Source: Methanobacteriota archaeon (GTDB lineage Archaea; Thermoplasmatota; Thermoplasmata; Thermoplasmatales; Aciduliprofundaceae). Taken from it: a stretch of 50,308 nt of DNA. Under the pieces are notes generated by a model, which worked only from the letters and a program-made list of their open reading frames with translations, was not told the DNA's origin and ran no database searches. Shown here in pieces: positions 27,242 to 38,553 of the stretch; the stretch's first letter is position 1; the number at the start of each line of letters is the position of its first letter. A program made the position numbers and the translations under genes. The stretch is taken from positions 1-50,308 of the forward strand of contig JAADDK010000024.1 of NCBI GenBank assembly GCA_013154005.1, written 5' to 3'.

Positions 27242-28708
27242 CTATACAACTTTAACACTCTCGCCACCGTGTTTCGTATGGCGTGGGCGAATCTCCACGA
27301 ACAGCGGTAAAGACATGTTTCCACCGGTAACCAGTGCCACGCCCACCGGCAGCCGCTGAATTTCTTCCAGAGAGCCTTTGGTGAGGTTCTCCACAGAGTT
27401 TCCTATGGCCCGCAAATCGTTGGGGTTGGTGACTCTGAGAATAATCTGGGTATTGCACTGCGATAGCACGTTTTTGTCAATCTTGGCGGGTCTCTGTGAG
27501 ATTATGCACAGTCCCAGTCCGAATTTTCGACCTTCACTTGCAATGGTGCGCAGAATCTTGCTGGATGCCGCCACGCCCTGCTGCGGCACATAGTTGTGAG
27601 CCTCTTCCACCACGAGCATAAGTGGAGGAATTTTATTTCTCTTTCTCAATTCAAACAATGCCATTGATAGCCGCTGCACCACAAGCTCCTGAATATCCGG
27701 CGCCACGCCTCTCAGATTGATTATTGATATCTTGCCCTTGGACACTATGTCTCCAATTTTCGTGCCTTTTTTGGCGAATATGCCCATTTCTGCCATGTAT
27801 TCTAACTGTGCAATCAGCGGTGAGAGATTTGGAGAATCTTCGCTTTCCAGAATTCTAATCACGTCTTTAAGGTCAAAAAACTGACGCGATGTTTTGAGCA
27901 GGTCCATGGCTTTTCTCAGCGGTATGAGGTACTGCCTTGCATCCAGATTCATCAGATTCAAAAGCTCTCTGGGACTCATTGAGGCCAAGGTAAATCTGAG
28001 GGGTCTGCCGCCATTTAGCTCGGTATCTGGAGTGAACATATTGATTTTCGATGCAAATCCCATGGGTTTAACTCCAAATTCATCGTGCTGCTTGCTCTTT
28101 TTCGCCGGGTGTTTGAGGGACTGATACTCTCCATGCGGGTCTATTATTACCGCAGTCACATCTTTCTTCAGAAACTCTTCTAAAAGCACTCCGGTGAGGT
28201 AACTTTTGCCCGCTCCGGTTTTTGCCAGCACGCTCACGTGCTTTTGGACCATATTGTTTATGTCGAGATAAATTTTGATGTTTTTGTGTTTGAATAATCG
28301 GCCTATATACGCACCGGTTTCTTTTATTTCCTCTATTCCTATGACCTTTTTAATGAACTCATCGGTGGCAAAATAAACTATGCTGCCCACATTAAATGGT
28401 ATGCGCGGATACTGTAACAGTCCTTTTTCGTCCCTGTATCCTATAACCACAACCGTAGCAAGAATGGTTTCTTCAATGTTTACCTCCTCGCCTTTTAGAA
28501 GTTCTTTTGCCCTTTTTTCAGTGAGATTGGTTTTTCTCTTAATCTCATCCACCCTGCCCAGAACCCAGCCAAATTTCTCATGAAGCACCTGCACGTAATC
28601 GCCCTGCTCTAAAAGCGGTGAGGTCACCGTGCATGTGAACTGTGTGGTGCCCACGTCACCATATATCACGCCTGCACGTTTCAACCCGGATTTATCCCCC
28701 TCTGCCAA
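27242..28708 (-). CDS. herA: HerA bipolar DNA helicase/translocase
   Basis: 488-residue FtsK-HerA family hexameric ATPase that cooperates with NurA, Mre11 and Rad50 in DNA end resection. An N-terminal HAS beta-barrel spans about 1-110. Walker A LAKTGAGKS lies around 161-169, Walker B LMLVVEEAHNYV is C-terminal to the middle, and an arginine-containing SEGRKFGLGL-ISQRP sensor segment follows. The start is a TTG at 28708, 15 nt after the PAN stop, with a GGGGG ribosome binding site about 7 nt upstream. NurA is not recognisable in the window. Confidence 0.94.
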   Translation of the reverse strand: MAEGDKSGLKRAGVIYGDVGTTQFTCTVTSPLLEQGDYVQVLHEKFGWVLGRVDEIKRKTNLTEKRAKELLKGEEVNIEETILATVVVIGYRDEKGLLQYPRIPFNVGSIVYFATDEFIKKVIGIEEIKETGAYIGRLFKHKNIKIYLDINNMVQKHVSVLAKTGAGKSYLTGVLLEEFLKKDVTAVIIDPHGEYQSLKHPAKKSKQHDEFGVKPMGFASKINMFTPDTELNGGRPLRFTLASMSPRELLNLMNLDARQYLIPLRKAMDLLKTSRQFFDLKDVIRILESEDSPNLSPLIAQLEYMAEMGIFAKKGTKIGDIVSKGKISIINLRGVAPDIQELVVQRLSMALFELRKRNKIPPLMLVVEEAHNYVPQQGVAASSKILRTIASEGRKFGLGLCIISQRPAKIDKNVLSQCNTQIILRVTNPNDLRAIGNSVENLTKGSLEEIQRLPVGVALVTGGNMSLPLFVEIRPRHTKHGGESVKVV

Positions 28709-28723
28709 TGCGATTCCCCCAAT

Positions 28724-29911
28724 TTATGCAAACATGTTCTCTCCGGGAGCTTCTCTGCGTATTTCGTCAGCGTGCAGGAATTTCCTTATTGCCAGCTCAA
28801 AGTCCTCCTGGGTCACGTAGTCTCTGTCATCCCTGATGGCAAACATACCCGCTTCCATGCAGATTACTTTCAGGTCAGCACCGCTGAAGCCATCGGTCTT
28901 CTTGGCGATTGCCTCAATATCCACGTCTTTTATGTTCATCTTTTGGGTGTGTATCTTCAATATTTCAATCCTCGATTTGTAGTCTGGATACGGTACAAGA
29001 ATGATTCTGTCAAACCTTCCCGGTCTGAGTAATGCAGGGTCTAAAATATCGGGACGATTTGTTGCGGCAATTATCTTAACATTGTCGAGAGGCTCAAAGC
29101 CATCGAGCTCCGCGAGAAGCTGCATGAGCGTGCGCTGCACCTCTCTATCTCCAGAAGTGGCCATATCCATTCTGCGGGAGCCTATGGCGTCCAGTTCGTC
29201 AATGAACACTATGCTCGGTGCCTTTTTCTTTGCCAGTGCAAACAAATCCCGTACCAGCTTGGCACCTTCACCTATGTATTTGCGTACCAGCTCGCTGCCC
29301 ACAGTGCGTATGAATGTTGCGTGAGTGTGATGTGCCACCGCCTTCGCTAGCAGAGTCTTGCCCGTGCCCGGTGGGCCTGCGAGAAGAATACCTTTGGGTG
29401 GTTCTATGCCTACCTTTTTATACAGTTCTGGATGCAAAAGCGGAAGCTCCACAGTTTCGCGAATCTCGCGAATCTGTTTTTCCAGACCTCCTATATCTGC
29501 ATAGGTGACTTCAGGTCTCTCTATCACCTCCGCCGCGGTGATATCCGGGTCGTACGTCTCGGGAAGCGCATGCACTATCGAAAAACTCTGCTTGTTCAGC
29601 GCCACGCGGCGGCCCGGCTTGAGCTCTTTCTCTGATACAAATGTCGACGCGGTGACTATGAATGAGGGACCTGCAGAGCTGCGTACCAGAATGCGATTTT
29701 TATCCAGAATATCTTCTATCACTCCCAGCAAAAGTGGTGGGGCTTTCATTTTGTTCAGCTCTTTTTTGAGTCTATTCACCTCATTTTGCAATCGCCTGAG
29801 TTCCGATTCCAGATATCTTTTCTCATCTTCGAGAATTCTTATTTGACGGAGCAGCTCTTCACGGTCGTAATCATAACTGAGTACATCATCTTCAATTTCT
29901 CCTCTTTCCAT
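28724..29911 (-). CDS. pan: Proteasome-activating nucleotidase PAN
   Basis: 395-residue AAA+ unfoldase that feeds proteins to the 20S proteasome. It has an N-terminal coiled coil (about 15-56), an OB domain (60-115), Walker A GPPGTGKT at 179-186, Walker [12 protein letters not shown] with D238-E239, and the second region of homology [20 protein letters not shown]. The C-terminus reads MFA where PAN normally ends in hydrophobic-Tyr-any (HbYX), the motif that opens the proteasome gate. GGTG about 8 nt upstream supports the ATG at 29911. It precedes herA in a likely operon. Thermoplasma itself is known to use VAT rather than PAN, so this gene marks a different lineage or branch. Confidence 0.96.
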
Positions 29912-29968: not shown

Positions 29969-30541
29969 TTATTTTCTGAAAAATATAAGCACGTCTCCCT
30001 TTTTAAGCACTGTGTTTGCACCCGGATTTTTTAAAATCTTTTTACCGCGTTTTATCGCAATTACGGTGCCAACTCTTCTGCGTATGTCTGTGTTTTTCAG
30101 TTTTTTATTTACATACTGCTCGGGAAGTGTAAATGCATAAATGTTTGAAGATTCAGAGAACATTACCTGACTTATTAGCTCGGCTACTTTCGGATTAAGA
30201 AGTGCATTGAGAATCTCTTTGCCGATTATAACACTCTCTACCATCACGTTATTGGCCCCTGCCCTCCGCGCTTTCTCCACGTTTTCCTGCTTTTTTAAAA
30301 TCACCCCTATATTAATCCACGGATTCAGTTCTCGTGCAAGAAGCGTGATGTAAATGTTTTTGGTATCGTCTTCCGTGGCAATTATTATTGTATCTTCGTT
30401 GTCTATCCCCGCCTGCTTCAAAACGTTGGGATCTGCCGGGTCACCCCATACAAAATTTTCCCGGTCATCTGGAAAGCCTGTATCTATAAACGTTGCATTT
30501 CCCAGATTTTTTGTGATTTCATTGTATCCGCATACTATCAT
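29969..30541 (-). CDS. RCK/TrkA-type regulatory subunit, second half of a split channel
   Basis: 190 residues. A Rossmann-like TrkA-N domain comes first (about 1-125, with GDPADPNVLKQAGIDNEDTIIIAT), then a TrkA-C domain (about 125-190). The first helix and second strand of the Rossmann fold seem missing: MIVCGYNEITKNL runs almost straight into the later part, so nucleotide binding may be lost or altered. The ATG overlaps the channel gene stop (ATGA), so it is co-translated. The pair mimics the tandem RCK1-RCK2 of Slo/MthK-type gating rings with RCK2 as a separate chain. Confidence 0.82.
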   Translation of the reverse strand: MIVCGYNEITKNLGNATFIDTGFPDDRENFVWGDPADPNVLKQAGIDNEDTIIIATEDDTKNIYITLLARELNPWINIGVILKKQENVEKARRAGANNVMVESVIIGKEILNALLNPKVAELISQVMFSESSNIYAFTLPEQYVNKKLKNTDIRRRVGTVIAIKRGKKILKNPGANTVLKKGDVLIFFRK

Positions 30542-31479
30542 TTTTTATCGCCCTCCGGTATGTAAACTATGGTATCTCCATGCCTCAACGTGAAGTTGGG
30601 AGTGGGGTCCTCGATAATTTTTCCGTTTCTGTATATTGCAATTATGGTGCCGTACTTATCTCTGAATTTCATTTCTCCTATTTTCTTGCCGGAAAGCGCC
30701 CCTTTAACCACCATCTCTTTTATATTTATGCCCTCTCCAGAGGCGAATATATCGTATCTGAAGTCACCTTTTGCCCAGTAATCTATCATGGTACTCATTA
30801 TCTTTTTCCGTGAGATTACCATGTTGGCTCCGGATTTTTTAATAACCTCCTCGCTGTTTTCTCTGTTTGAGAGGGCAATAATGTTAATCTCTTCGTTCAA
30901 ACTTCTGGCGGTGAGTGCAATCATGGCATTTGTTTCATCATCATCCAGCGCAAGTAATGCGGACGCACGATCTATATTTGCCCTTTTAAGAACTCGAATC
31001 TCTGTGCAGTCATCATCAATATGGGGCACATCTGTGGGAGGATTCCGTGAAATTACAATTAACGGTATTCCCAGAAATTTTAGTTTTTTAACTATTACGC
31101 GACTCACTTCGTTATCACCGCATATAATCACATGCTCGTCTCTGGGCAGAGGCACCATCCATCCATGCTCTGCCTGATTTATTTTGATTTCGAGCCAGGG
31201 CCCAATGATGGTCTGTATCCCTCCGAAGATTATTGCCAGTCCCATAATCAGGTAAATTATGGTGAACCATTTGCCCACTTCACTTGTAAGTTCCACTCCG
31301 GGTGGATAATGTCCGAGAGTTGAGATTGTGGCTACACTGAAATATATGGCGTCAATAAGAGTCACAGAATGATGCTCTATATAAACGCGGATTAGAATAT
31401 ATCCTCCGCTTCCAAACAGTATAAGCGATATGGAGATTAAAGCGAAAAGAATGAGCCGATTTTTTAAGTTGAAACTCAT
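30538..31479 (-). CDS. Two-TM cation channel with RCK domain and non-canonical filter
   Basis: 313 residues. TM1 is at about 8-32, the pore helix and filter at about 40-62, TM2 at about 68-95, and then RCK (TrkA-N from about 113, TrkA-C at about 230-310). The layout is that of MthK-type calcium- or nucleotide-gated potassium channels. The filter reads T54-L55-G56-H57-Y58-P59-P60 instead of T-V-G-Y-G-D. The second glycine is absent and prolines follow, as in cyclic-nucleotide-gated channels. Selectivity may therefore be relaxed. The Rossmann segment keeps only a degenerate glycine motif (ICGDNEVSR). It lies 16 nt after the TPR gene, with no evident ribosome binding site. Confidence 0.88.
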   Translation of the reverse strand: MSFNLKNRLILFALISISLILFGSGGYILIRVYIEHHSVTLIDAIYFSVATISTLGHYPPGVELTSEVGKWFTIIYLIMGLAIIFGGIQTIIGPWLEIKINQAEHGWMVPLPRDEHVIICGDNEVSRVIVKKLKFLGIPLIVISRNPPTDVPHIDDDCTEIRVLKRANIDRASALLALDDDETNAMIALTARSLNEEINIIALSNRENSEEVIKKSGANMVISRKKIMSTMIDYWAKGDFRYDIFASGEGINIKEMVVKGALSGKKIGEMKFRDKYGTIIAIYRNGKIIEDPTPNFTLRHGDTIVYIPEGDKK

Positions 31480-31495: not shown

Positions 31496-33877
31496 TCATG
31501 GATTTAGATTTTTTTGTTTGATGAAAAATTCCTCATCCATGCCGATATTTTTGAGATGAATTCTTGACTCCTCCTCTTTATCAAGCATGTGCAGGGTATA
31601 TGCCAGATTAAATTCTGCTTCTTTGAAGTTAGGGTCCAGTGCCAGTGCGCGCTTGAATTTCTTTGCGGCTTCCTCGTAATTTCCCTTTTCAAACTCCAGA
31701 ATGCCCATTGCGTTATTTGAGTATTTATCATCACTATCACTTACTTTTTCCACCTGATTGAGCTCAATAAGGAGATGTGCTACACCCGGTATGCTCACCC
31801 GCTGTTTACTGCCCACTTCTTTTCTTTCTTTAATTTTTTCGATAAGTTCCTTTCTTATTTCTTTCAGTTCTTCCAGACTCAGAGATTCCAGATTCTCAGG
31901 TTCAGTTACCTCAGCGGCTGCAGAAAGCTCTTTTATATCCTCGATAACTTCCGATTTTATGTTTGCAGGAGCACCGCCACCGGCTGCAGCACCACTGAGA
32001 AAATCAACCATCTCTTTCAGCCCGCCCCCTTTGTGTTCTCCTTTCATAGATGCTATTGCTTTCTTTCTCAGGGATTTTATATCTTCCATTTCCATGTCAT
32101 AAATATTTTCGGGGATATCCATATTTGCCTCTCTCAAAAGAGCGATTGTATCTTCCACAAATACATTTTTCATGTCCTCCATCTGCTCTCTTTCCAGTTC
32201 TGCACTTATTTTTAACAGTGTTTCTATTGCTTCTGTGAATTCTCCTGCATCAATATGCTGTTTTGCTCTTGTAATTTCCTGCTTCATATGCTCGGTCAGA
32301 ATATTAGAGGTTTGAAGCTGATTTTCTATTTTTTCAATAGAACTCATAAGTTTTTCTTTTGTTTTACGTTCGGCTTCTTTCATTTTTATACGGTGAATCA
32401 TAGTATTTCTAAGGGTGCGAAGTTCGTTTATGTTCATCCGCTCAATCTCTCCGGGCACGGGTTCGCCGGATTCCTGAGCAATCTCTATTATGTCTTCCAT
32501 CAACGCACTTCGAAGAGCTTTTTCATCCATGTATTTCCTTAAAGCAATTTTCGCCTCCTCAAGACGATTTTTTGCCTCATCCAGCTCTCCGCGATTGGCG
32601 TGGGTATATGCCTCCGAAAGTATGTTTCTGATTTCACTCATATCGTCCTCTTTCAGCATGGCCATGATTGACTGGATGCCCTGCATGACCTCTGCACCCA
32701 TATCGCGCTGTTTTTCACCGTGGATATATTGCAATATTTCCTTTGCCTCTACGCTTGCTGGATTGATTTTCAGTGCCTTTTTTGCCATTTCTTCGGCTTT
32801 TCCCGGCATGGATCTCTTCAGGTATATGTTCGCAAGTAGCAGATACGCATCCTCACTCTCTTTATGTTTTAGGTACTCGTAGAGTGCATTTTCCGCCTCC
32901 TCATATCTGCGCATCTCGTAGAACAGTATTGCCTTGTTAAGGTATGCCTGCGCAAAGGATGGGTCATATTTTAGTGCTGCGTTATAGCTTCGCATAGCTT
33001 CGTCGTAGTTGCCCTTATGTTTTAGCACCACCCCACGATTATTCCATGCATTGGGTATATTTTGCCGGACTTTCAGAGCATTTTCATAGCAGAGAAGTGC
33101 TTCATCGTATTTCTCCATTGCAAAGAGTATGTTTCCTCTGTTGAGCCAGCACGATACGTTCCTGGGATTGAACCTTACACACTGTCCATACGCTTCCTCT
33201 GCGTCTTCAAAGCTTCCCAGCTGCTCCAGCCCGGCTCCCATTATGAACCATGCTTCATCGTCTCTTATATTGTTTACCAAGAGATCTTTCAGTATTGCAA
33301 GTGCCTCCTCTATACGCCCTTTTGCTATGAGAATTCTGGCCTTAATTTTCATCAGCTTTGGAGTGCGTTTAATTCTCAAAGCCTGCTCCACATATTCCAG
33401 GGCTTTATCATAGTTTCCACTGTTATAGAATTCTTCTGCCCACTGTGTCAGGTTATCTATTTCTCCAACACTCGGAAGATAGCTTCCCTCTTTTCGCTCT
33501 TTTTTTATTATATCAAACTCTTCAACTATCCGCTCAAGTTCGGTTCCGTCCATTATCGTGAGTTGCATATTTTCCGGGATTCTGGCTTTTGCTTCTGGGG
33601 CCACCTCTCCGGTGGTTATTATCATCCATCTGAGCATTAGCGTTTCAAAATCCACAAGTTCTTCAATATCTTTTGCGGTAAGCACAGGTTTTCTTATGAA
33701 GATTATCACGTATCTGATTTCGTTGCCAGGTACGGGCATGAAGGCATCTATTACCACTGTGTCTTCCCTGTACACGCCGTTTCTTACATTGAAACCCATC
33801 TCTCTAACTATACGGTTGCATAGATGATAAAACTCATCGATGCTCATGTTTTTTATTTTTTCGAGTATCTCTGTCAC
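31496..33877 (-). CDS. TPR protein with N-terminal Mrr-like endonuclease-fold domain
   Basis: 793 residues. Residues 1-125 follow the pattern of the Mrr_cat restriction-endonuclease fold: helix, VVIDAF strand, YVIIFIRK strand, then MIITTGEVAPEA and IMDGTELERI. The usual Q-x-K is not preserved (IIFIRK), so catalysis is doubtful. TPR repeats fill about 140-380, charged helical coiled-coil stretches about 390-690, and two more TPRs near 715-780. The GTG start overlaps the stop of the zinc-ribbon TPR gene (GTGA), showing coupling; GAGGGG lies just upstream. It is likely a scaffold. A DNA- or peptide-binding role for the N-terminal fold is inference. Confidence 0.78.
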   Translation of the reverse strand: MTEILEKIKNMSIDEFYHLCNRIVREMGFNVRNGVYREDTVVIDAFMPVPGNEIRYVIIFIRKPVLTAKDIEELVDFETLMLRWMIITTGEVAPEAKARIPENMQLTIMDGTELERIVEEFDIIKKERKEGSYLPSVGEIDNLTQWAEEFYNSGNYDKALEYVEQALRIKRTPKLMKIKARILIAKGRIEEALAILKDLLVNNIRDDEAWFIMGAGLEQLGSFEDAEEAYGQCVRFNPRNVSCWLNRGNILFAMEKYDEALLCYENALKVRQNIPNAWNNRGVVLKHKGNYDEAMRSYNAALKYDPSFAQAYLNKAILFYEMRRYEEAENALYEYLKHKESEDAYLLLANIYLKRSMPGKAEEMAKKALKINPASVEAKEILQYIHGEKQRDMGAEVMQGIQSIMAMLKEDDMSEIRNILSEAYTHANRGELDEAKNRLEEAKIALRKYMDEKALRSALMEDIIEIAQESGEPVPGEIERMNINELRTLRNTMIHRIKMKEAERKTKEKLMSSIEKIENQLQTSNILTEHMKQEITRAKQHIDAGEFTEAIETLLKISAELEREQMEDMKNVFVEDTIALLREANMDIPENIYDMEMEDIKSLRKKAIASMKGEHKGGGLKEMVDFLSGAAAGGGAPANIKSEVIEDIKELSAAAEVTEPENLESLSLEELKEIRKELIEKIKERKEVGSKQRVSIPGVAHLLIELNQVEKVSDSDDKYSNNAMGILEFEKGNYEEAAKKFKRALALDPNFKEAEFNLAYTLHMLDKEEESRIHLKNIGMDEEFFIKQKNLNP

Positions 33878-34749
33878 ATCAACCCCTCCACTTCCTTAAG
33901 TTTGTCTTCCACATCAAACCCTTCGGCAAGCATCTTTTTAAGCGTTTCCCGTGCTCTGGAAAACATGTTTCTTTCAAGAAGTATATCCACTATGTTCTCG
34001 TAGGCCTCTCTGTGCTTGGGATTTTTTCTCACGGCAGTTTGAAATGACTGTAAAGCACCACCCCATTTTCCCATTTTTCTGAGACACACACCCCGTTTGA
34101 ACCATACCTCTGCATTATTTTTGTCTAACTGAAGAACACGGAGATATGCACGTTCAGCCTCCTCATACTGCTCAGCTTCCATAAGTGCATCTGCCAGTAA
34201 TTCCCATACTTTAAAATCTTCCGGATTATCTTTTAGGATGCCGTTGTAGACTTCTATTGCACGTCCCCATTTTCCTGATTTTACCAGCAACTCTCCATAA
34301 TGTATGGCATATGAATCTCTCTCTTTCCAAATCTCCTCCATGGTTGATAATGCAGCGTCGAGGTTATCCTCCTCTTCGTAAATAATGGATAGCAAAAATT
34401 TACCCTCTGATGTGGTGTCTCTGGTTGCAAATTCCTCTGCAAGACGCAGATAATAGTTTTCCTCAATATCGAATATGCTCAGATAATCTCCATGCTCCCT
34501 GTGGAGCCGAAGTGCCAGTTTTGCAAGTGAAATAAAATCTTCATTTTCCCCCGCAAGTGCCCTGCGCGCGCTCGCATTGGCTTTTTCCATATGTTTTTTG
34601 AAAATTACAGGGTCCTCCACGCTCTCGTTGTCAAAATTTCCTGTGGCAAATCCCCATCTGGTAAGAAATGGTGTATCAATGGCTATTTCTCTGGTACAAA
34701 CTTTGCACACTGGCTTCGTTGATTCCCTCCCGCAGAGCACGCACTTCAC
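33874..34749 (-). CDS. Zinc-ribbon TPR protein
   Basis: 291 residues. The N-terminal zinc ribbon has C3, C6, C15 and C18 (CVLC and CKVC). A helical region without a named motif (about 45-125) follows, then four or five TPR repeats (about 130-285) with canonical W-x-x-L-x-x, A and P positions. GTG 34749 is the start, with GAGGA 4 nt upstream. It is translationally coupled to the Mrr-like/TPR gene and divergent from mre11-rad50 across an 88-base promoter region. Probably a scaffolding partner of the downstream protein; its specific role is unknown. Confidence 0.78.
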   Translation of the reverse strand: MKCVLCGRESTKPVCKVCTREIAIDTPFLTRWGFATGNFDNESVEDPVIFKKHMEKANASARRALAGENEDFISLAKLALRLHREHGDYLSIFDIEENYYLRLAEEFATRDTTSEGKFLLSIIYEEEDNLDAALSTMEEIWKERDSYAIHYGELLVKSGKWGRAIEVYNGILKDNPEDFKVWELLADALMEAEQYEEAERAYLRVLQLDKNNAEVWFKRGVCLRKMGKWGGALQSFQTAVRKNPKHREAYENIVDILLERNMFSRARETLKKMLAEGFDVEDKLKEVEGLM

Positions 34750-34837: not shown

Positions 34838-36151
34838 ATGAAATTTGCACACATTGCAGACGCGCATCTTGGAGCGTTTACCAAAAACCCTGCTCTGGCA
34901 GAGTGCAATTTAAATGCATTTATTAAGGCCATGGAAAAATGTATGGAAGAAAAGGTGGATTTTATAATTATTGCTGGAGATTTATTTCATAACCCTGTGC
35001 CTGATATGAGTATGGTAAATCGTGCGGTGGAGGTTATGCGCAGGGTTAGAGATTTGGGCATCAGGATATATGTGGTATATGGTTCGCATGATTTCTCTGG
35101 AGGTACCACGTCTCTCCTTGATGTGCTTTCATCTGCCGGTGTGTTTGTGAAGGTGGTAAAGTATGAAATTAGAGATAACAGAGTGGTTCTTATCCCTGTG
35201 GAGGATCCTGCAGGTGTGAAGATTGTGGGAATACCCGGATTAACCGCATCCAGGGAGGTCAGGTACTTTGAGGAGGGTATGTTTGATTTTGAGAATCTGA
35301 AAAAGGTTCATGGTCCCAAGATATTTGTGTTTCATACCACGGTTATGGAGGTGAAACCTCCGCATATTAAGGACACTCAGGCAGTGCCGGTGAGCAGTTT
35401 TCCAAGAGGTTTTGATTACTATGCAGGGGGGCATCTTCATGAGCGAATAGAGTACATGTATTCTGGAGCCCCGTTAGTGTATCCTGGCGCGCTATTTGGC
35501 GCCACCTACAATGACCTTGATGAGGGGCAGGAACGTGGATTTTACATTGTTGAAGATTTCAAACCCCGGTATATTCCGGTGAAGGTGTGTGGTTTAGAGA
35601 AAAAAGTGGTACATGCCGATGGATTGAGTGCGAGGGAGCTGTACGAGAAATTGGAAAAATATGCAATGCAGGATCATGGGGATAAAGTGGTTATTATCAA
35701 GGTCAAAGGTACTCTGCTAAGCGGGCGTGTCTCGGATATAGATTTTCATAAAATTAGAGAGCTTGTTAAAAGGAGCGCAAGAGATGTGCTCTTAAATACT
35801 TACGGATTGAAATCCCAGAAAAGTATCGAGCATTCGGCGGTGGGTGAATCGGTAGAAGAGATAGAGAACACAGTGTTTTCGGAGATTGCCGACTACGGTG
35901 AAAATTTTCCCAGACGGTTGTTTGAAGTATTGAGACAGGAAAAAAAGGAGGGAGAGCGAAAAGCGGATTTTGAGCAGAGAATATGGAAAAGTGCACAGCC
36001 AGTTATAATGGATGCAATATCTGCAATGACTGAAAAAAACAACAGAGTGCGCGTGGATACTGAAAAAAGAGAAAACCCTAAGAGTAAGGTTAGTAAAAAG
36101 AGTCAAAGCAGAAAAAAAGTTAGCCTGTTTGATTTTGGTGATGGCCTATGA
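34838..36151 (+). CDS. mre11: Mre11 double-strand break repair nuclease
   Basis: 437 residues. Phosphoesterase motifs are in order: D8 and H10 (ADAHLG), D48 (GDLFHNP), H84-D85 in YGSHDF (usually GNHD), H166 in FHTTV, and H199/H201 in GGHLHER. These bind two Mn ions for 3'-5' exo- and endonuclease activity. The C-terminal 60 residues are Lys/Ser/Arg-rich and disordered-looking, as in other archaeal Mre11 Rad50-binding tails. The stop overlaps the rad50 ATG by 4 bases. Asn to Ser at the GNHD position (S83) is unusual but compatible with metal binding, since the His-Asp pair is intact. Confidence 0.96.
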   Translation: MKFAHIADAHLGAFTKNPALAECNLNAFIKAMEKCMEEKVDFIIIAGDLFHNPVPDMSMVNRAVEVMRRVRDLGIRIYVVYGSHDFSGGTTSLLDVLSSAGVFVKVVKYEIRDNRVVLIPVEDPAGVKIVGIPGLTASREVRYFEEGMFDFENLKKVHGPKIFVFHTTVMEVKPPHIKDTQAVPVSSFPRGFDYYAGGHLHERIEYMYSGAPLVYPGALFGATYNDLDEGQERGFYIVEDFKPRYIPVKVCGLEKKVVHADGLSARELYEKLEKYAMQDHGDKVVIIKVKGTLLSGRVSDIDFHKIRELVKRSARDVLLNTYGLKSQKSIEHSAVGESVEEIENTVFSEIADYGENFPRRLFEVLRQEKKEGERKADFEQRIWKSAQPVIMDAISAMTEKNNRVRVDTEKRENPKSKVSKKSQSRKKVSLFDFGDGL

Positions 36152-38553
36152 TTATCAAAGTGGTGGAGCTGCACAACATCAGAAGTCATGTGGATACTCG
36201 TATTGAACTTGGATATGGCACGTATCTTTTTGAGGGCGATATTGGAAGTGGGAAAACAACAATACTTATGGGGATAGAGTTTGCTCTGTTTGGGAATTCT
36301 AAGCCGCAGTTTTATAAGAAGCTTGTAAGAAAGGGTGCCAGTGAAGGATATGTGAAGGTGGTGTTTGAGCATGATGGAGAGGAATATGTTATATATCGCT
36401 CTCTGAAGGTCAGAGGAAAGAGCATTCAGAATGATGAGACGTATGTTATTACCCCCAATGGGAGGATGGATTTATCTCCCGGGGAGGTGCAATCATTCTT
36501 TTTAGGGTTACTGGGCATATCTGCTGGTCAGGGCACTCGCAGGTCTCTTCCGATTGTTACCTATGCAATTTATACTCCTCAGGAGGCTATGAAAAGCATT
36601 TTAACAGGAAGGCCAGAGGAGAGAATAGAAATTATCAGAAAAATATTTAAGCTGGATGAATATCGAATTGCCTCAGAAAACGCAAAGTTGCTCATGTCGC
36701 AAATCAGAGGGGAGGTAAGGGCCACTGCTGCTCGAGGGGATGAGCTAAATAATCTGAACAGAGAGTTGGAAGAGTTAAATAAAAGAAAATCTGAGATGAA
36801 TTACAGAGTCTGTGAAGTAACTGAAACTCTTAAATTATCCAAGGAGAAACTCGCACGTGCCAGAGAAGAGTTTGAGGCCATGGAGCGGAGGAGAAAGAGA
36901 TACGAGACTTTAAGGAGGCAACTTGATGCGCTCAGAGCGGAGATAGAAACTATGAAAAGGACAGTGGAAGCTCGTAAAAAAGAGCTCCAAGAACTCGAAT
37001 TAAAAAAGGAGAGGACAAATAAAATACAGAAGGAGGCATCTCAGTATGAGACTTTGCGGTTAAAGGAGGAAGAGATTAGAAAGGAAATTGAGGAACTCAA
37101 CGAACTTTACAGAAAAAAGGCAAGATTGCAGGGTGAACTTAAAAGTGCAGAATCGGATATGCGCACTTTAGAGGAAGTAAAACATCAAATAATGGATAAA
37201 GAATCTATTTTAGATAATCTGCAGCTTAAAATTAAAAAAAGTGGTGATGTTGAAGGTGCATTGAAATTGCTCAGGGAGCGATATTCCGAGGTTACTGGAG
37301 AGCTTAGAGCTCTTGAGTATAAACTCAGAGAAAAAGAACGAGAAATAAAACAGTACAGCACCCTAAGTGGCAGCTGCCCTGTGTGCAAGAGGCCACTGAC
37401 AGATGAGCATAAAGCGAGGTTAATTGAAAAAGCAACGGAAGAACTGAAGAGTTTAAAAAGAGATTATACTGCGCACCTTGAGAAAAAAAGAGAACTCGAA
37501 CGTAATAAAGAGGAACTGGAAAAAATGGCAGAAGAGATTAAGGTGCTTCTTCTCCGGTTTGAAAGCACAAAGAGTGAAATAAATGCGTTGAAAACTCAGG
37601 AGCGAAAGTTATTGACTCGTGTGAAAAGAGTGGGTGCTATAAAAGAACAGTTAGTGGAGATTGAAAAGAAGTTGGAGCCTCTGGAAGGACTGAAGAGTGA
37701 TTATCAGGCTCTAAGAGCACGTTTAAAAGCTCTTGAGCCACTGTGGCGAGAATACAGTTCTTTGAAAGCCCAGATAGTGGCTATCGATAGTGTGAGAAGT
37801 GCAATTCTATCCATTGAGTCTGAAAAAAGAGCAAAAGAGGTGGAAGCAGAGAAATTAATGCGGGAAATTGAGAAGTTAAACTATTCTGAATCGACTTATA
37901 ATGCGGTAAGAGATAGATTTAATGCTCTTAGGGTGGAAGTGGGTAAACTCAGAGAATCTTTAAAAAATCTCACTGAACAGAGAGCGAGCATAGAAGAAGA
38001 TATTGAGAATAAAATAAGGAGAATTTCAGATTTAAAAGAGAAAATTGAGCTCGGTAAGCGACTTGAGAGCATGGGCAACTGGCTCGATGGAAAGTTCATA
38101 CCATCTCTGGAGAAGATTGAAAAGCTGAGGTTGGCCACTATAAATGACGAATTTAGGGCGCTTTTTGAGAAGTGGTTTCTTGAGCTTCTTGGTGAAGGAG
38201 AATATACTGCCACGGTTCTGGAGGATTTCAGCCCGGTTATAAGGTACGAGGACTACGATATGCCCATTGATACATTAAGCGGCGGTGAACGCACGTCCGT
38301 GGCTCTTGCATATCGTCTTGCTCTCAATACTATGGTTAAAAGGGCTCTTGGTATGCGTGGAAATATTCTGATACTTGATGAGCCCACTGATGGCTTCAGC
38401 AAAGACCAGCTTTATAAACTTAAGGATATACTGGAGAAAATGGAAACTGAGCAGATAATTATTGTGAGTCACGAGCGAGAGCTAAGAAATCTGGCGGATA
38501 CTATTTATAGGGTGGAGAAGGAGAACGGAGTGTCATCGGTTAGGATAGTTTAA
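36148..38553 (+). CDS. rad50: Rad50 SMC-like ATPase
   Basis: 801 residues, partner of Mre11 in DNA end tethering and processing. The N-terminal ATPase half has Walker A GDIGSGKTT at 30-38. Two long antiparallel coiled-coil arms flank the zinc hook CPVC (C410, C413). The C-terminal half has the ABC signature LSGGE at 710-714 and Walker B ILILDEPTDG at about 740-749. The length is slightly below the 850-900 of many archaeal Rad50 proteins, so the arms are a bit shorter. The ATG overlaps the mre11 stop (ATGA), so the two are coupled. Confidence 0.97.
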   Translation: MIIKVVELHNIRSHVDTRIELGYGTYLFEGDIGSGKTTILMGIEFALFGNSKPQFYKKLVRKGASEGYVKVVFEHDGEEYVIYRSLKVRGKSIQNDETYVITPNGRMDLSPGEVQSFFLGLLGISAGQGTRRSLPIVTYAIYTPQEAMKSILTGRPEERIEIIRKIFKLDEYRIASENAKLLMSQIRGEVRATAARGDELNNLNRELEELNKRKSEMNYRVCEVTETLKLSKEKLARAREEFEAMERRRKRYETLRRQLDALRAEIETMKRTVEARKKELQELELKKERTNKIQKEASQYETLRLKEEEIRKEIEELNELYRKKARLQGELKSAESDMRTLEEVKHQIMDKESILDNLQLKIKKSGDVEGALKLLRERYSEVTGELRALEYKLREKEREIKQYSTLSGSCPVCKRPLTDEHKARLIEKATEELKSLKRDYTAHLEKKRELERNKEELEKMAEEIKVLLLRFESTKSEINALKTQERKLLTRVKRVGAIKEQLVEIEKKLEPLEGLKSDYQALRARLKALEPLWREYSSLKAQIVAIDSVRSAILSIESEKRAKEVEAEKLMREIEKLNYSESTYNAVRDRFNALRVEVGKLRESLKNLTEQRASIEEDIENKIRRISDLKEKIELGKRLESMGNWLDGKFIPSLEKIEKLRLATINDEFRALFEKWFLELLGEGEYTATVLEDFSPVIRYEDYDMPIDTLSGGERTSVALAYRLALNTMVKRALGMRGNILILDEPTDGFSKDQLYKLKDILEKMETEQIIIVSHERELRNLADTIYRVEKENGVSSVRIV

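Follow-up and report, generated by a model that had tools for sequence, protein, structure and literature searches.

Gene organisation of the locus

The window, that is the whole 50,308-nucleotide stretch analysed, carries on its minus strand a gene for a channel subunit of 313 amino acids (30538..31479) and, directly after it, a gene for a separate RCK subunit of 190 amino acids, RCK2 (29969..30541). The channel subunit was delimited from its open reading frame translation, Pfam matches, an AlphaFold2 model and Foldseek comparisons, and is made up of M1 (residues 5–34), a pore helix (41–53), the filter (54–61), M2 (67–107) and a first RCK domain, RCK1 (about 113–308). Matches to Ion_trans_2 (residues 17–91), TrkA_N (117–223) and TrkA_C (260–305) each exceeded the Pfam gathering cut-off and were the only Pfam matches; a cyclic-nucleotide-binding domain and a voltage-sensor-like S1–S4 part were absent. 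The M1-P-M2 pore domain corresponds to PF07885 (26.8 bits against a cut-off of 22.5), which was matched by 14 of the 15 members tested of the clade described below, and all 15 have TrkA_N and TrkA_C C-terminal of M2. By its domains the protein is therefore a member of the 2-TM/P-loop superfamily and of its RCK-regulated type, in agreement with the two TMs plus RCK recognised in the first-pass annotation. NCBIfam models gave only weak matches, far under their cut-offs.

The AlphaFold2 model of the channel (mean pLDDT 74.5, pTM 0.41) has helices at residues 5–34, 41–53 and 67–107 and a Rossmann-like RCK domain. It is a monomer model of moderate confidence, and the tetrameric filter lies outside its scope. 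MthK and GsuK were its top structural matches in Foldseek, with MthK first.

The stop codon of the channel gene and the start codon of the RCK2 gene overlap in the sequence ATGA (30538..30541, minus strand). The RCK2 gene directly follows the channel gene in 29 of 29 related loci examined, and in these relatives the channel stop and the RCK2 start are overlapping or closely adjacent. Channel and RCK2 are probably translationally coupled through the ATGA. A programmed −1 frameshift at a run of six A residues before the TGA, which would fuse channel and RCK2, was considered and rejected: the A-run is not conserved, the junction in most relatives having other sequence such as GCATCA-TGA, and coupling is therefore the simpler explanation. 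RCK2 was assigned by Pfam and has lost the GxGxxG motif together with some nine residues of helix A. GxGxxG is lost in all 17 RCK2 proteins of the family to which the source genome belongs (DHVE2, acidophilic Thermoplasmatota of the deep sea), whereas most families elsewhere in the clade have an RCK2 with GYGxxG. Apart from these losses, RCK2 is well conserved within DHVE2. An AlphaFold2 model of RCK2, made from a three-sequence alignment, was poor (mean pLDDT 49.8) and was left out of use.

Upstream of the pair, on the same strand, lie genes for two TPR proteins of 793 and 291 amino acids (31496..34749), and downstream lie proteasome-activating ATPase-like (PAN) and HerA-like genes (27242..29911, minus strand), all assigned by Pfam. 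These neighbours adjoin the channel/RCK2 pair only within the genus, so the TPR genes were placed outside the conserved unit and the neighbourhood was discarded as a clue to function. The N-terminus of the large TPR protein (31496–33877) matches the Mrr catalytic domain, which has a restriction-endonuclease-like fold (E 1e-5). Genes for a calcineurin-like phosphoesterase and a Rad50-like ATPase (34838–38553), probably a Mre11-Rad50 pair, start divergently from the channel cluster.

Sequence and conservation of the selectivity filter

The filter DNA, gtagccacaatctcaactctcggacattatccacccggagtg on the minus strand of the window (31294..31335), translates as VATISTLGHYPPGV (residues 49–62), identical to the filter given in the first-pass annotation. 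From residue T51 it reads T51-I-S-T-L-G-H-Y-P-P-G, and the family motif is T-I-[ST]-T-L-G-[HY]-[YF]-P. An orthologue of the channel was found in 17 of 18 genomes of the DHVE2 family. All 17 orthologues, with relatives 41–62% identical, contain T-L-G-[HY]-[YF]-P, and none contains the K+ channel signature T-x-G-Y/F-G-D/E/N. The question raised at first reading, whether T-x-G-H-Y-P is a conserved clade, is thus answered in the affirmative, and TVGYGD, named beforehand as a possible sign of sequence error if present in close relatives, does not occur in them.

Residues 51–59 belong to the best-conserved parts of the protein: their mean column entropy across the 17 orthologues is 0.20 bits, compared with 1.26 bits for the whole protein. 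T51, I52, T54, L55, G56 and P59 are invariant and are each encoded by three or four synonymous codons, P59 by all four proline codons. The low entropy, together with the use of several synonymous codons, indicates that the filter is under purifying selection and is not the product of decay or error. Position 57 is Y in ten orthologues and H in seven. Of the two prolines first noticed in the filter, only P59 is a family feature. P60 varies freely (P, Q, S, K, R, T, A or H), so the second proline is confined to a few members. The filter contains no acidic residue, and E63, which lies past it, is not conserved in the family.

Comparison with channels of known structure

The best solved full-length relative of the channel is GsuK, the dual-RCK K+ channel of Geobacter sulfurreducens (PDB 4gx5). 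Searches with the channel sequence gave E values of 4.5e-32 for GsuK and 1.5e-19 for the best MthK variant, and searches with a profile of the clade gave 3.8e-79 and 7.2e-52 respectively. GsuK and the window pair both have two RCK units per pore subunit, known for the window pair from its genes alone, and the two channels share a PW-[IL]-E signature after M2. They differ in that both RCK domains of GsuK are on one chain, whereas RCK1 and RCK2 of the window are on two genes, and in that GsuK has the K+-conducting filter TLGFGD, whereas the window channel lacks GYG. GsuK carries its nucleotide site on RCK2 (PMC3510474), where the nucleotide motif is intact. This site seems to be lost in the DHVE2 family only, as the other families mostly keep GYGxxG.

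MthK resembles the window channel in its 2-TM plus RCK architecture and size class, but has the filter TVGYGD, and its second set of RCK domains arises from an internal start within a single gene. In the HMMER alignment the channel RCK domain has a gap, L and N where MthK has its Ca2+ ligands D184, E210 and E212. The description of the rest of the protein as MthK-like therefore needs correction: by E value GsuK is nearer, the Ca2+ ligands are missing, and the second RCK gene had been overlooked.

When the pore alone was searched against solved structures, four engineered NaK-CNG chimeras with the filters TVGNTPPP, TVGEAPPP, TVGETPPP and TVGDTPPP ranked highest, ahead of native NaK and of every native K+ channel. 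This result upholds the CNG-like shape proposed for the filter at first reading. CNG channels, NaK2CNG and the window channel have a T-x-G-x-x-P filter in common, but the CNG filter glutamate is replaced by H or Y in the window family and only one proline is conserved. The window channel, unlike CNG channels, has no voltage-sensor-like part and no cyclic-nucleotide domain; the likeness is convergent, and not a matter of subfamily membership. NaK2CNG is non-selective (PMC12376597), as is CNGA1, whose filter is wide (PMC13088309). NaK, with the filter TVGDGN, has sites S3–S4 only and is non-selective (PMC9822992).

Non-selective conduction has also been shown for NaKTs of Tsukamurella (filter LPMGNGPLSP) and for the NirBac channels (PMC5052707, PMC4607889). 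Like the window channel, these are prokaryotic 2-TM proteins with rewritten, sometimes proline-rich filters. NaKTs, however, keeps G-N-G and has its key proline at the inner end of the filter, NirBac channels carry Kir domains, and an RCK domain has been described for neither.

A wider clade with rewritten outer filters

Profile searches at class level (300 genomes) and across the phylum Thermoplasmatota (390 genomes) detected relatives in further families (E 1e-57 to 1e-104). The resulting clade spans at least ten Thermoplasmatota families, counted by family labels and with fragmentary members included. Its filters include TLGYYPP, TLGSYPA, TLGFYPA, TLGYSNNG, TLGAYGNG, TMGAPGDL, TLGSYSTD, TLGAYSTA and TLGSYGAI. 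All members have T-x-G and none has GYGD; the second filter glycine and the acidic residue, reported as missing from the window channel, are absent throughout the clade. The clade filter is two residues longer than that of GsuK or MthK, and its outer half differs widely between families.

In a maximum-likelihood tree of channels from which the filter columns had been left out, 29 non-GYGD sequences grouped together with moderate support (75/84). This group was sister, at 95/90, to one comprising GsuK and haloarchaeal fused dual-RCK channels (100/99), the latter taken from plasmid records. The haloarchaeal filters keep GYG or GFG (TTGYGTDS, TAGFGGDA, TTGYGQDS). In these plasmid channels (L119, L120, L123) GYG or GFG is followed by T, G or Q and then D, instead of by D.

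At least three further Thermoplasmatota groups of RCK channels without GYG are present in the tree. Its well-supported branches require no fewer than four switches between filters with and without GYG. One separate lineage from Thermoplasmata genomes has the filters TIGIYAPPN and TIGLYVPNGG (L057, L059, L060, L061, L063), and two more groups have TLGGSSYEP (L078, L080) and TNGS[VQ]Y[SV]P (L064, L066). A channel with the canonical TVGYGD filter (L056) branches next to the last of these groups.

We tentatively suggest that repeated rewriting of the outer filter half (to TLGHYP, TLGSYP, TLGYSNNG, TLGAYGNG and TMGAPGDL, with TIGIYAPP, TLGGSSYEP and TNGSQYVP in separate lineages) may have given Thermoplasmatota a whole class of RCK-gated cation channels encoded by two genes. 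Such channels would not be K+-selective, and their selectivity may differ by family.

Predicted conduction and gating

On balance, sequence comparison indicates that the product of the gene pair is probably a cation channel of the dual-RCK (GsuK-like) branch: ligand-gated, weakly selective or non-selective, and with a gating ring of 4+4 RCK units split between two genes. The tetrameric pore would be built from four 2-TM subunits, and their four RCK1 domains would join four separately translated RCK2 subunits in an eight-RCK gating ring of predicted stoichiometry and assembly. The inner half of the K+ filter (T-x-T-x-G, sites S3–S4) is kept, and the outer half (YGD, sites S1–S2) is replaced by an aromatic pair and the invariant proline, with a length increase of two residues. 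The outer filter may then be wide and flexible with few dehydrating sites, as in NaK and CNG channels, and both K+ and Na+ would be able to pass. A kept inner half, a rewritten outer half and nearest solved pores that are NaK-CNG chimeras, considered with the non-selectivity of NaK2CNG, NaK and CNGA1, lead us to expect a gated, weakly selective or non-selective monovalent channel. Strong Ca2+ binding or block of the CNG kind is not expected, as the filter has no acidic residue. The gating ligand is probably not NAD or ADP at the GsuK site, since the RCK2 nucleotide motif is lost in DHVE2.

The same genome also encodes a canonical TVGYGD channel and TrkH/TrkA. K+ selectivity and uptake are thus otherwise provided for, and the RCK channel need not serve K+ uptake. 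In one genome of the same genus (G007, 95% complete), no match was obtained for the channel or for TrkH, both of which are near universal in the family.

Loss of GYG is no proof of lost selectivity, because TbIRK lacks the signature (its filter is GGYVG) and yet keeps a K+/Na+ selectivity of more than 7 (PMC5429665). The window channel could likewise still be K+-selective if the aromatic pair, together with the proline, formed a different kind of filter with four sites; the clade would then be an odd-looking K+ channel family. The retention of T-x-T-x-G and of an aromatic residue at the Y position (Y or H, as above) and K+ conduction by the dual-RCK relative GsuK (PMC3510474) are all compatible with this. 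We nevertheless regard it as rather unlikely: the second glycine and the acidic residue are gone in every member, the filter is longer than in GsuK and MthK, and its outer half varies among families in a way that is unlike K+ channels.

Permeability to or selectivity for divalent ions, in particular Ca2+, seems less likely still. The model here is the plant nuclear channel family CASTOR/POLLUX/DMI1, which likewise has a dual-RCK ring and a filter lacking GYG; CASTOR is a Ca2+-selective RCK-ring channel without TVGYG (PMC6697748), and two of 15 clade members weakly matched the Pfam model Castor_Poll_mid (best E 7e-6). These plant channels, however, are eukaryotic, carry their RCK domains on one chain and have the filter AD-S/A-GNHA with a functionally essential aspartate. 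In CASTOR (ADSGNHA) the substitution D265N abolishes current (PMC6697748); the DHVE2 filter has no counterpart of this aspartate, and the non-conserved E63 lies beyond the filter.

We consider it very improbable that the protein is a paralogue which has degenerated or does not conduct, and which anchors the RCK ring to the membrane. Its filter is unlike those of characterised K+ channels and the RCK2 nucleotide motif has decayed in DHVE2, but decay would not leave the filter among the most conserved stretches with invariant residues written in several synonymous codons. The source is a draft assembly of 135 contigs, but the idea that a canonical TVGYGD channel was misread through faulty sequencing, assembly or framing is already refuted by the same motif in 17 separate genomes at 41–62% identity and by an open and intact frame.

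Relation to known channels and significance

Textbooks present the RCK ring as the regulator of K+ conductance. Precedents exist for 2-TM channels with rewritten, non-selective filters (NaKTs, NirBac, NaK), and in plants CASTOR pairs an RCK ring with a filter that lacks GYG. In open-access papers we found no described prokaryotic or archaeal RCK channel with a CNG-like filter, and no prokaryotic RCK clade combining a conserved CNG-shaped filter with a split second RCK. A search for literature on Aciduliprofundum physiology and K+ yielded nothing relevant.

If non-selective, the channels would be natural counterparts of the engineered NaK2CNG with a ligand gate built in, and their thermophile origin may suit structure work. 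In an acidophile, a cation path that is gated but non-selective would bear on how the membrane potential is set. Within the clade, nature provides a graded set of filters on a shared scaffold, and the GYG-bearing sister channels can serve as controls when asking which filter features determine selectivity. The fused dual-RCK channels on haloarchaeal plasmids are annotated merely as NAD-binding proteins. An RCK channel on the Rhodococcus plasmid pDK1 (L122) has the filter TVGFREV, with arginine at the position of the second glycine.
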